The notes under the pieces were generated by a model. The model searched no databases and was not told where the DNA came from. It worked only from the letters and a program-made list of their open reading frames with translations. Below, one piece after another: positions 47,452 to 51,409 of a stretch of DNA of 64,000 bases (positions are counted from its first letter, which is position 1; the number at the start of each line of letters is the position of its first letter). The DNA is from Bradyrhizobium guangzhouense (lineage in GTDB: Bacteria; Pseudomonadota; Alphaproteobacteria; Rhizobiales; Xanthobacteraceae). The position numbers and the translations under genes were made by a program. The DNA lies in contig NZ_CP030053.1 in assembly GCF_004114955.1 (NCBI RefSeq), positions 3,658,001-3,722,000 of the forward strand, written 5' to 3'.

Positions 47452-48510
47452 TCACGGGCGCGCCTCGAGAATGAGATTGAACGGCGTCTCCGCGGCACGG
47501 CGGAAACGCGTGAAGCCGCCCTGGCGGGCCACCTCGCGCAGTCGCGCTTCGCCAGCCTGAGCTCCCAGTGCGAGGCCGACTTCCTGGTCCAACGACGCCG
47601 GCGTGCAGACCATTGTCGATGCCGCATAATAGACGCGGCCGACCGGGTTCAGATTGTCCTCGAGACGGTCCTTGGCGAACGGCTCGATCAAGAGGCAGGT
47701 GCCGTCATCGGCAAGCGCGGAGCGCGTGTGCCGCAGCGCGCCGACGGGATCGCCCATGTCGTGCAGGCAATCGAAGAAGCAGACGAGGTCGTAGGCTTGG
47801 GCTGGGAACGTCTTGGCCGAACAGGTGGCGAAGTGAACGCGATCGGAAAGCCCGGCCTCGGTTGCGGCCTTGCGGGCCGCCTCGATCGAGCCGTCGTGGT
47901 AGTCGAAGCCGTAGAACGTCGAATTGGGAAAAGCCTCGGCCATCAATCGCGTCGAAACGCCGTGCCCACAGCCGACGTCGGCGACCTTGGCGCCGCGTTC
48001 AAGCTTGTCGACGACCCCTTCGAGGGCCGGGAGCCAGCCATGGACCAGATAGTGCTTGTAGCTGGTACGGAAGAAGCGCGCCGTTCCGCAGAACAGGCAC
48101 TCGCTGCGCTTGTTCCAGCCGACGCCCTTGCCGGTCTTGAAGGCGTCCGCGATCTTGGGTTCGTCGAGAAAGGTCGCTGAGACGAGGCTGCCGACGGCGG
48201 CGAGGAAGATCGGGCTGTCCTCGTCTGCCAGCGCCAGGATCTGCTCCGGCAGCATCGAAAATTGGCCTGATGCGCTGTCGTATTCGACATAGCCCGATGC
48301 GGCCTGTGCCGCGAGCCATTCGCGGACGTAGCGCTCGGCAGTGCCGGTCGCCGCGGCCAGGGCGGCGGCATCCATCGGGCCGTCCTGGGCGAGAGCCTTG
48401 TAGAGACCGAGCTTGTCGCCCAGCAGCATGAGCGAAGCGCTCATCGCCGCGCCGATATCCCCGATCATCTTGCACATGAAAGAATTGAGGCGATCTTCGT
48501 TGATTTCCAT
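47452..48510 (-). CDS. SAM-dependent methyltransferase with N-terminal winged helix
   Basis: The 352-residue protein has an N-terminal winged-helix dimerisation domain (GLYKALAQDGPMDAAALAAATGTAERYVREWL) and a class I SAM domain (VADVGCGHGVSTRLMAEAFP near 183, FYGFDYHDGSIEAARKA). The layout is that of the Rv2258c-like small-molecule methyltransferases. It begins 69 bases after the doxX stop, on the same strand as the bufferin operon, so it could be part of that transcript. The substrate is unknown. Confidence 0.82.
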   Translation of the reverse strand: MEINEDRLNSFMCKMIGDIGAAMSASLMLLGDKLGLYKALAQDGPMDAAALAAATGTAERYVREWLAAQAASGYVEYDSASGQFSMLPEQILALADEDSPIFLAAVGSLVSATFLDEPKIADAFKTGKGVGWNKRSECLFCGTARFFRTSYKHYLVHGWLPALEGVVDKLERGAKVADVGCGHGVSTRLMAEAFPNSTFYGFDYHDGSIEAARKAATEAGLSDRVHFATCSAKTFPAQAYDLVCFFDCLHDMGDPVGALRHTRSALADDGTCLLIEPFAKDRLEDNLNPVGRVYYAASTMVCTPASLDQEVGLALGAQAGEARLREVARQGGFTRFRRAAETPFNLILEARP

Positions 48511-48579: not shown

Positions 48580-49092
48580 TTAGTGGTCGGGACGCATCAC
48601 AAACCTGCAAAGCAAATGATCGAGCGAGACCCGGCCCGGTCCATAGGCCATGATGGCCAGCGCCATTGCCGCCCAGGTGATGTGGACCGGCCAGCCGTCG
48701 GGCACGGTGAGCTCGACGATGACGGTCATGAACAGGAGCCCGAGCGCGGCAAAGCGTGTGCCGAGGCCGAGCACCAGCAGGACCGGAAACATGACCTCGC
48801 CGCAGCCGGACAGGAAGGCCATCGTCGCGGGGATCGGGTAGTGATAGGGGCCGCCTGGCAGATGCAGCATGAACTCGTCGGTGAAGAGTGTCACCGCAAC
48901 GTCGCTTAACTTGAAGAACCCGGTCCATTTGAGGATGCCCGAACGCCAAAACGGGACCGCCAATGCCAGGCGAAGAACGAGCTGCACCATGGATGGAGTT
49001 GCGATCGTCCGGACCAGAGCATTGGCCCTGTCGACCAGCTCGCCGAAAGAGGGCAGGGCATTTGCCGGTGCGATGCGTTGTTCCGAAATCAT
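48580..49092 (-). CDS. DoxX family membrane protein (BufD-like)
   Basis: The 170-residue inner-membrane protein has about four hydrophobic segments, WRSGILKWTGFFKLSD near 50 and FLSGCGEVMFPVLLVLGLGTRFAALGLLFMT near 95, both typical of DoxX. Its start overlaps the bufC stop (ATGA). In bufferin operons a DoxX gene (bufD) is the usual fourth member; its role is thought to relate to redox or metal handling, not settled. In this locus the call BufD rests on the context. Confidence 0.88.
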   Translation of the reverse strand: MISEQRIAPANALPSFGELVDRANALVRTIATPSMVQLVLRLALAVPFWRSGILKWTGFFKLSDVAVTLFTDEFMLHLPGGPYHYPIPATMAFLSGCGEVMFPVLLVLGLGTRFAALGLLFMTVIVELTVPDGWPVHITWAAMALAIMAYGPGRVSLDHLLCRFVMRPDH

Positions 49093-49874
49093 CTTGCGTC
49101 TCCAGACGACAGCGAGGCGAAGGCGCCCGCCTCGAACAGGCCGGCGATATTGGTGGCGAGATCGAAATCAGGTGCGTCTTCCAGCGCCGCAGCGGCGGCT
49201 TCTGCCAGCATGGATCCCGACATCAGGCAGGTCAGGAAGACCGCGCCGCCCGGCGGTAACAGCTGCACCACGATTTCGACGTCCGGCCGCGTGATCAGGG
49301 CATCTTCCGGTACGGAGGCGTCGATGGTGCCGGCAGACTCCGAGCCGCCGCGGTTGGCGGCAAAGATGCTCACCGCCGCGTAAGGCGACCGTACCACCCG
49401 GGTCGCCGGATGCACGGTGAAAACGAGGCCGGCCAGACGATCCGGCGCGACCCTGGCGAGAGAGGATGGCAAGAGCGGCGCGCTGTCGGCGGCGTGATAG
49501 GCGTCAAGCCAGGCCCGCTCGATCCGCGCGACATCGGCGAGCCAGGGCAGCGATTGAGCGTGCTCGTAGCTTTCGATGAAGGCGGGAAAATCGCGCCCGT
49601 AGTCGAACAGCAGCGGCGACGCCGGCGGGGTCTTGCGAACATGGATACGCGCCATGGCGCGAAAGAAATCTGCACCGGTCAGGCGCTGCACCGCCGGGTA
49701 GATCGACGCGAGCGCGTCGATCAGGCTAACCGTGACGTTGTTGCGATGGACGTTGTAGCACTTGACGGCTGACTTGCCGCAAGGCCCCGTCACGATGCTC
49801 GGAATCTCGCCGACCGGATCGAGCAAGGCAGGCGCGAACGCGGCCGCGTAGGAGGCATCCGGTTCAGGCTGCAT
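49089..49874 (-). CDS. DUF2063 partner protein of the MNIO enzyme (BufC-like)
   Basis: The 261-residue protein has an N-terminal DUF2063-type region ([11 protein letters not shown]... [31 protein letters not shown], cut) and a C-terminal region with [10 protein letters not shown]. In RiPP pathways with DUF692 oxygenases this partner binds the precursor and is needed by the oxygenase. Its start at 49874 lies within the last bases of bufB (49892 is possible), and its stop overlaps doxX. Cytoplasmic, no signal peptide. Confidence 0.85.
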
Positions 49875-50766
49875 GACGAATCCTCCCGGCATGACGATCC
49901 AGGATCGCCTGTGCAGCCGCGGCCTCGGCCTTCAGGAGCGGCCAATGGGGAATGTTGCTGTCCCATTCGATCAGGGTCGGAACGGGGCCGCGGCGTGCTA
50001 TCACGATCTCGAACAGCTTCCAGACCGCGTCCGCGACCGGGCCGTCATGACTGTCGATCAGCAGCTTGCCTTCATCGTCGTCTTGCTCGGTATGGCCGGC
50101 AAGGTGAATTTCGCCGACGCGCGCCAGGGGGAAGTCGTCGAGATATTGCAAGGCCGAGAAACAATGGTTTGCCGCGGAGACGAACACGTTGTTGACGTCG
50201 AGCAACAGGCCGCAGCCGGTGCGCTCGGCGACAGTGCGGATGAAATCCGTCTCGCACATCGCGGAGTTGCGAAACGCCACATAGGTCGAGGGGTTTTCCA
50301 GCAGGATCGGCCGCCGAATCGCCTCCTGAACCTCGTCGATGTGGTCGCAGACGCGGGCCAGCGTCGCCTTGTTGTAGGGCAATGGCAGGAGATCGTTGAA
50401 AAAGCTGGTCCCGTGCGTCGACCAGGCCAGATGCTCGGAGACGAGCGCCGGCTGATAGCGCGCGACAAGGCCGCTAAAGCGTGCCAGATGCGCACGGTCC
50501 AGCGGCGCGGGTCCACCGATCGACATGCAGACGCCGTGCAGCGAGAGCGGATGGTCACGGCGCAACCGTTCCAGCATCCGATGGGGCGGTCCGCCCGCGC
50601 CCATGTAGTTCTCGGCATGGACCTCGAAGAAACCGCGCTGCGGGCCTTCGTCGAGAATTGCGCCGAGGTGCTCGGGCTTGAAGCTGGTCCCGGCGACGCC
50701 GCCGACGGGAGGCGAGAAGCGGAGGGGAATGGCCGTAGAGGCCCGTGGCATGATCGTTGCGGCCAT
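49864..50766 (-). CDS. DUF692 multinuclear iron-dependent oxygenase (BufB-like)
   Basis: The 300-residue TIM-barrel enzyme has the DUF692 metal ligand set: [57 protein letters not shown] and LIEWDSN. Relatives oxidise cysteine residues of precursor peptides (MbnB, TglH and BufB). It has a GGAGGAG site before the ATG at 50766, 41 bases after the bufA stop. A longer in-frame reading to 50949 crosses the bufA gene and is rejected. In a bufferin operon it would convert core cysteines to thiooxazoles. Confidence 0.92.
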
Positions 50767-50807
50767 GTCGCTCCTCCGCGATTGTTTGCCTCGATGTTGC
50801 CCTTGCC

Positions 50808-51113
50808 TCAGACCGGCTTGAGCGAGCCCTTCTTGCCACCGGGCAGCTCGATGCCGGTGCAGGTGCCGCCCTGGACGAACTTCCAGGCGTTGCCCTGGAA
50901 GTCGACGGTCGAGGTCCCCTGGCAGGTCGTGCCCGGTCCTGCGGCGCAATCATTCTGGCCCTTCAGCGCAACGCCGAAGCACTTTTCCTTCTTGGCTGCG
51001 ATGGCCGCATCGGCCTCGGCCTTGGTCAGCGGAGCGGCGTGTGCGAGGGTTGCGAGCGCGGTCGAGACGGCGCCGGCGAGTACGAGCGAGCTGATGGTGG
51101 TCTTGGCAGACAT
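50808..51113 (-). CDS. DUF2282 bufferin precursor (BufA1-like) with Sec signal
   Basis: The 101-residue precursor has a signal peptide ([20 protein letters not shown], cleavage near residue 26) and four mature cysteines at 45, 56, 64 and 85 in [17 protein letters not shown] and GGTC. This is the DUF2282 pattern of bufferins, exported copper-binding RiPPs in which, as I recall, the central cysteines are turned into thiooxazoles. The ATG at 51113 is preceded by GAGGAGA; an in-frame extension to 51437 would destroy the signal peptide. First gene of bufA-B-C-D. Confidence 0.88.
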
Positions 51114-51409
51114 GCAATATCTCCTCTGGGGTAGGGCGATGGGCCCAGTGTCTCGTTCGTTCTCGCCGCAGCCGCCGTTACCGGAGAAACCGCTCACGAG
51201 TTGGTGAGACCGTTGGGTGACGCGCACGACGCCGTGCGCTTGGGGGCGGATTAGCGGCGGGCGAGGCGGCAAATTCCAATGCCTAATCTCTATGGAGACG
51301 TTGCCCGGCGGGCATTGGCCAGGATCGCGGGCATTTGCGAGACGTAACGAACGGCTCCGGCCTGCGAAGGAGCCTACCAGTCGGCCTCGCCAACCTGTCG
51401 GGTCAAGCC
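51114..51409. other. Divergent region between bufA and adenylate cyclase genes
   Basis: The 296-base gap must hold the promoters of both. I could not assign -35/-10 elements or a metal-responsive operator. No CRP/FNR palindrome and no small gene are visible. Confidence 0.5.

Follow-up and report, generated by a model that had tools for sequence, protein, structure and literature searches.

How is a bufferin operon controlled when no sigma-factor gene lies beside it, and what does it mean that a nucleotide cyclase gene faces it instead? Both questions are raised by bufA-bufB-bufC-doxX, an operon for a ribosomally synthesised and post-translationally modified peptide (RiPP) in the 64,000-nucleotide stretch of Bradyrhizobium guangzhouense DNA analysed here (the window). 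Our answer, to which we give a probability of about 0.7, is that this is a chromosomal Buf1 copper-buffering operon controlled in trans by the sigma factor EcfF and its anti-sigma factor OsrA, with the divergent cyclase gene raised alongside it. Sequence comparison establishes the genes and their families, the conservation of maturase ligands and precursor cysteines, the paired promoter sites and the linkage of the cyclase gene to the operon. The original prediction, made from the letters of the window, recognised the family, roles, order and completeness of the bufferin operon, all of which stood; it omitted the promoter of bufA, of the extracytoplasmic function class ECF16, as well as the unlinked EcfF-OsrA pair and the divergent cyclase gene.

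The four genes lie in the order bufA-bufB-bufC-doxX on the minus strand with every reading frame intact (Table 1). A gap of 41 bases separates bufA from bufB, and the coding overlaps already described between bufB and bufC and between bufC and doxX measure 11 and 4 bases. A mechanical list of open reading frames (ORFs) starts bufC at 49892; we prefer 49874 because a strong ribosome-binding sequence, GGGAGGA, lies just upstream of it. All four products exceed the curated Pfam cut-offs (in brackets): BufA with 77.8 bits for DUF2282 (22.4), BufB with 346.9 for MbnB_TglH_ChrH (25), BufC with 76.8 for DUF2063 (27.2) and DoxX with 61.2 for DoxX (23.6). BufB, a multinuclear iron oxygenase (MNIO), also scores 378 bits against the NCBIfam equivalog MNIO_BufB ("MNIO family bufferin maturase"; cut-off 310) and stays below the cut-offs for HvfB (226.7 vs 360 bits) and MbnB (43.4 vs 325 bits). 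No NCBIfam cut-off was passed by BufA, BufC or DoxX, and for the Buf2 precursor family Cu_RiPP_BufA2 BufA gave 23.1 bits against a cut-off of 60. The DUF2282 gene and the MbnB_TglH_ChrH (MNIO) gene are each present in a single copy in the whole 8.14-Mb genome. Among the best 80 of 583 loci retrieved by BufB similarity, bufB, bufC and doxX are present in 80 (doxX as a 33-residue match only in L101) and bufA in 79, the exception being a locus (L063) whose sequence begins at bufB. The gene coordinates, the single direction and the complete set with DoxX were thus correctly predicted, and the core agrees with the literature description founded on Caulobacter, in which bufferin operons are built from precursor, MNIO, DUF2063 and DoxX genes, arranged as bufABC, and additional conserved genes are very infrequent (PMC12452194, in part).

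The four precursor cysteines, at residues 45, 56, 64 and 85 as predicted, keep their spacing of 11, 8 and 21 in all 80 precursors compared (the window and 79 loci). Judged by eye, the N-terminus of BufA has the charge, the hydrophobic core and an AHA cleavage site at residue 26 of a putative Sec-type signal sequence, which would leave 75 residues; inspection of BufA revealed no EGKCG motif. Conservation of the DUF692 ligands had been named beforehand as a test of the prediction, and the nine positions H77, H112, E157, D190, N193, H221, D238, H240 and E267 of BufB, which align to the TglH iron ligands H71, H107, E151, D184, N187, H216, D229, H231 and E258 (PMC10880893, in part), do not vary in any of 81 sequences. 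BufC has a DUF2063 domain and 261 residues, partner proteins that combine DUF2063 with a RiPP recognition element (RRE) being expected at about 250-260; profile searches did not detect the RRE half. Neither a single-sequence search nor a 17-row profile found a PDB relative of BufC, three single-sequence matches to antibody fragments (E 0.14-0.3) having been discarded. Because of the DUF2282 domain and cysteine spacing, the gene order, and the equivalog score and ligands of BufB, the locus is classified on its sequence features as a Buf1 bufferin operon, a known and widespread kind. Buf1 peptides carry thiooxazoles on the two central cysteines and a disulphide between the outer two, and improve growth in copper excess (PMC12452194, in part); by analogy, BufA would bear thiooxazoles at Cys56 and Cys64 and have a role in copper handling.

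Upstream of bufA we find an ECF16-type promoter. We scanned the 60-95 bases before the bufA start for a strict form, with a spacer of 16 or 17 bases and CGAA as the second box, and a loose form ending in CG[AT], and found them in 71 and 77 of 80 loci, respectively. The strict form occurs before 2 of 1,769 starts of ORFs of at least 150 codons in the same loci, and in dinucleotide shuffles averages 0.02 per 80 (at most 1; 50 rounds). The CG[AT]A form precedes bufA in 73 of 79 loci, whereas its overall density predicts 0.0028 per search interval, and one genome (G036) has a weaker site (CGAT). The bufA site matches published ECF16 sites, given as tGTAACc-N16-CGAA with the EcfF form GTAAC(g,a)-N14-15-(c,t)CG(t,a) (PMC3420878, in part) and as (T/C)GTAAC-N17-CGAA (PMC8315932, in part); the matches include the RpoE7 promoter of a Sinorhizobium meliloti DUF692 operon and the EcfF site of Bradyrhizobium japonicum.

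The gene facing bufA encodes a membrane class III nucleotide cyclase and has an ECF16-type promoter of its own. Its catalytic domain scores 85.2 bits for Guanylate_cyc, and the metal aspartates D448 and D491, the transition-state residues N566 and R570, and K487 and T559 are kept in 49 of 49 aligned sequences; we take the Lys/Thr pair to indicate adenylate rather than guanylate specificity. Across 30 Bradyrhizobium intergenic regions (window included, the Mesorhizobium locus L084 left out), an ECF16-type site precedes bufA in 29 and precedes the cyclase gene in 28, in the latter case mostly with CGTA as the second box; among 18 further genomes with a linked cyclase, 15 carry the two sites in the CG[AT]A form. 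Two dyads, both candidate operators, also lie in this region: CTCAC-N6-GTGAG occurs in 29 of 30 cyclase-linked loci vs 2 of 49 others, and CCAATGC...GCATTGG in 27 of 30 vs 2 of 49, the two others being Bradyrhizobium in each case, so that both appear specific to the divergent arrangement of this genus. An intergenic dyad was considered as a CRP site, but its half-sites are arranged the other way round from those of the CRP consensus, and we do not claim one. In the sensor half, His or Met at residues 82, 132, 141, 142, 149 and 202 is kept in 28-30 of 30 bufferin-linked cyclases; at His82 and Met142 most of 17 unlinked relatives have a different residue, and all 17 have a gap at His149, a hint of a possible metal site.

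The linkage of cyclase and operon extends across the genus. The cyclase gene is divergent to bufA in 29 of 33 Bradyrhizobium loci, and the sole case among 47 other loci is Mesorhizobium sp. L-8-3 (L084), with a 53% identical relative 1.5 kb from bufA and ECF16-type sites nearby. In 60 Bradyrhizobium genomes, cyclase matches of 60-100% identity occur in 19, all beside DUF2282, and matches of 52-55% likewise in 19, none beside DUF2282. The 30 DUF2282 places in these genomes comprise 19 with the cyclase and no linked NrsF, 8 with NrsF but lacking the cyclase, 3 that have neither and none that has both (Fisher 2.8e-5, uncorrected for common descent), where linked NrsF means within 10 kb of DUF2282 and two of the eight lie at 8.6 kb. 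In another sample, of 297 genomes from the order, four had cyclase matches of at least 82%, all of them Bradyrhizobium and all with DUF2282; the other five Bradyrhizobium have neither such a match nor DUF2282, and in three genomes from other genera a 54-57% match coexists with DUF2282, the DUF2282 places being listed on other contigs. The cyclase-bufferin block is conserved while its flanks differ: they sort into 12 groups on the far side of the cyclase and 6 on that of doxX, a count in which diverged flanks may figure as different. Some Bradyrhizobium genomes (G016, G009, G014, G034 and G043) have two to four DUF2282 precursors each, with differing linkage (cyclase or NrsF).

Which sigma factor would read these promoters? 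No sigma-factor or NrsF gene is adjacent to bufA in the window locus, the retrieved stretches of the 33 loci titled Bradyrhizobium contain no SigF/NrsF relative, and 29 of the 47 loci titled otherwise have an NrsF match. The genome itself has two ECF16 sigma/NrsF pairs, both unlinked to the operon. One resembles EcfF-OsrA of B. japonicum in promoter class and in sizes and cysteines, the anti-sigma factor having 212 residues with Cys129 and Cys179 and the sigma frame 170 residues when read from Met24 (PMC3420878, in part). An ECF16-type site lies upstream of this pair and likewise of 14 of 14 EcfF relatives (GTAAC-N15/17-CG(A/T)); a tighter motif with leading T and trailing A gave no site ahead of those 14. 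NrsF-family genes are present in all 60 Bradyrhizobium genomes and DUF2282 in 23. Of the cyclase-linked genomes, nine gave just one NrsF match, and both promoter sites are retained in every one of these nine; in three of them (G007, G011 and G047) the single pair shares 88-90% identity (anti-sigma) and 90-91% (sigma) with the EcfF-OsrA pair described here, the type in the other six being judged by match length only. Because these nine genomes keep both sites and the three checked have the EcfF-OsrA kind, EcfF, held by OsrA, is likely the controller of bufA. The second ECF16 pair is not favoured as sole controller, since pairs of its type are missing from the nine genomes, a comparison that did not search for ECF16 sigma factors lacking NrsF. 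It lies directly after a CusBA-like resistance-nodulation-division (RND) efflux pair and is followed by genes for an outer-membrane efflux component and for another membrane-fusion protein; among 15 relatives of the pair, a long CusA-tail match lies upstream in 5 and a shorter one in 3.

Table 1. Features of the bufferin locus (positions in the window) and the location of the second ECF16 pair.
Feature	Position	Strand	Remarks
doxX (bufD), DoxX-family membrane protein, 170 aa	48580..49092	-	Pfam DoxX
bufC, DUF2063 partner protein, 261 aa, PME type 1 by domain and length	49089..49874	-	Pfam DUF2063
bufB, MNIO (former DUF692) bufferin maturase, 300 aa	49864..50766	-	NCBIfam MNIO_BufB, Pfam MbnB_TglH_ChrH
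bufA, Buf1 (DUF2282) bufferin precursor, 101 aa	50808..51113	-	Pfam DUF2282
ECF16-type promoter of bufA, GTAAC-N17-CGAA	51156..51181	-	68 bases before start codon
Dyad CTCAC-N6-GTGAG, candidate operator	51193..51208	.	just upstream of bufA -35 box
Wide dyad CCAATGC...GCATTGG, candidate operator	51276..51318	.	between the two promoters
ECF16-type promoter of cyclase gene, GTAAC-N16-CGAA	51344..51368	+	66 bases before ATG
Membrane class III nucleotide cyclase with periplasmic dCache sensor, 697 aa	51410..53503	+	divergent to bufA, 296 bases away
Second ECF16 pair region	L180 2899-11928 (G000:C1, about 223-232 kb)		own genome

Known systems offer counterparts for each part of this arrangement. 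By gene content we liken the operon to the Buf1 operon CC3254-CC3257 of Caulobacter vibrioides (DUF2282, DUF692, DUF2063, DoxX), which has the same families in the same order, is regulated by sigma-F/NrsF through an ECF16-class promoter with a mapped start (PMC3511200) and is copper-induced (PMC8224329, in part). There, sigF (CC3253) and nrsF (CC3252) lie next to the operon, whereas the Bradyrhizobium locus has neither adjacent and a divergent cyclase gene instead; Caulobacter also has an unlinked sigma-F target operon, CC2907-CC2905 (PMC3511200). In S. meliloti, a small membrane-annotated protein gene leads a DUF692 and DUF2063 operon (SMb20530-SMb20527) whose mapped RpoE7 promoter, AATGTAACATCGCTCCCGGTGGCTGCGAATG, has the same boxes as the bufA site, and the divergent genes are the ECF16 pair rpoE7-ecfR7 rather than a cyclase; the authors saw no induction by H2O2, Cd or chromate (PMC6180224, in part). 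The oxazolin/captophorin clusters HvfABC and the methanobactin genes MbnABC likewise use MNIO enzymes acting on cysteines, and thiooxazole chemistry is reported for HvfB-type enzymes; they differ in that BufB falls under the HvfB and MbnB cut-offs and that the precursor here is DUF2282 in place of the EGKCG precursors of HvfABC.

Taken together, we propose the following working model. BufA would be made with its Sec signal, the BufB-BufC complex would oxidise Cys56 and Cys64 to thiooxazoles, and a Cys45-Cys85 disulphide would form; the exported peptide would then bind excess periplasmic copper, with DoxX supplying a membrane redox-protective function. Transcription of bufA would start at the ECF16-type promoter, driven in trans by the core sigma factor EcfF, which the membrane anti-sigma factor OsrA would keep inactive until stress frees it. 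Because the cyclase gene has the same kind of promoter, stress would raise the metal buffer and the membrane-bound cyclase alike, and the cyclase could report on the periplasm through cyclic AMP (cAMP).

Several observations weigh against parts of this model. We infer, rather than observe, the chemistry, the copper binding, the control by EcfF and any role of the cyclase. The second box of the bufA site reads aCGAA, whereas that published for EcfF is (c,t)CG(t,a), and the published B. japonicum EcfF-OsrA regulon, as given in part of PMC3420878, consists of methionine sulfoxide reductases and other genes, with no bufferin genes. The second ECF16 pair, beside its CusBA-like cluster, could be the controller instead of EcfF. 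The B. japonicum EcfF answers H2O2 and singlet oxygen (PMC3420878, in part), which also favours a different stimulus: the modified peptide may chiefly protect from oxidative stress or from metals other than copper (H2O2, singlet oxygen, gold, chromate, cadmium), copper being a lesser target. The same idea draws on the rise of Caulobacter SigF targets with chromate and cadmium (PMC3511200), on homologous operons being termed gold-induced and on a connection made, in a different context, between DoxX and oxidative or sulphur stress (PMC12452194, in part). We consider it unlikely, given that the Caulobacter SigF regulon, both DUF692 operons included, is copper-induced and a sigF mutant is copper-sensitive (PMC8224329, in part), and given the growth benefit of Buf1 in copper excess noted above. 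That BufA is exported unmodified and binds metal simply as a disulphide-bonded peptide is highly improbable: modification is invisible in sequence and some genomes elsewhere have precursors without MNIO genes (PMC12452194, in part), but here an intact BufB with all its ligands and an intact, overlapping BufC are encoded directly downstream.

A second line of alternatives concerns the part played by the cyclase. Adjacent genes travel together and can be co-inherited without shared function, and the 60 sampled genomes include related, non-independent ones, so the operon may be an ordinary bufferin operon with the cyclase a long-standing co-inherited neighbour. The cyclase gene is absent beside bufA in L042, L045 and L067, no rhizobial locus outside Bradyrhizobium except L084 has it, and it is broken in L043 and G046; because only two detached fragments of it remain there next to an intact bufferin operon (L043 and L202, from G046), it is not indispensable. 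In G053 (L200) and G025 (L201) a 60-61% cyclase stands upstream of and codirectional with bufA, and neither promoter site was found; the bufferin operon of these two loci has itself diverged. Against a neighbour without a bufferin role stand the occurrence of corresponding promoter sites before both genes in most of the 30 loci, the fact that a cyclase of at least 60% identity never occurs without an adjacent bufferin precursor in the 60 genomes, its mutual exclusion with linked NrsF, the constancy of the block amid changing flanks, and the persistence of linkage in the second, codirectional layout; on balance we hold mere co-inheritance to be somewhat unlikely. At the other extreme, the bufferin system may be a sensor-coupled unit in which the dCache cyclase, expressed from the facing ECF16-type promoter, senses periplasmic copper, redox or bufferin state and signals through cAMP, replacing the local sigma-F/NrsF switch that accompanies other bufferin operons. 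This extension is rather doubtful.

A further neighbour is a class I methyltransferase gene with an Rv2258c-like winged-helix domain (47452-48510, minus strand), which lies 70 bases past doxX and whose closest solved structure is TnmJ (8g5s). We considered and rejected it as a fifth, tailoring gene, since among the 80 loci it is complete only in L035, with a 36-residue piece in L036. Matches of at least 77% occur in 21 of 60 Bradyrhizobium genomes, and the gene is intact beside DUF2282 in the present genome and G047 only; in G036, interrupted remnants occupy the same spot (L174) and an intact copy lies elsewhere. It is a lineage-specific neighbour.

Buf1 operons, their core genes and sigma-F control, including that of an unlinked sigma-F target operon, are already known, and the core described here is ordinary. 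In the openly licensed literature, mostly searched without opening the papers, we found no link between a cyclase and bufferins, MNIOs or DUF2282, or between ECF16 and adenylate cyclases; bufferins in Bradyrhizobium likewise gave no match in that literature, and in the bufferin landscape paper (PMC12452194) "cyclase" occurs only in a reference title. The novelty lies in the regulatory arrangement, which can be tested: a bufferin operon without an adjacent sigma factor yet with an ECF16-type promoter, and a facing cyclase gene that has a matching promoter, accompanies the operon across Bradyrhizobium and does not occur together with linked NrsF. If this holds up, RiPP-based copper buffering in a genus of root-nodule bacteria would be connected both with the oxidative-stress switch EcfF-OsrA and with cyclic-nucleotide signalling, and there would be a first way to approach the question of which signal the periplasmic sensor of such a cyclase perceives. 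Should the sensor-coupled unit prove true, it would add a second-messenger arm to the biology of metallophore RiPPs.

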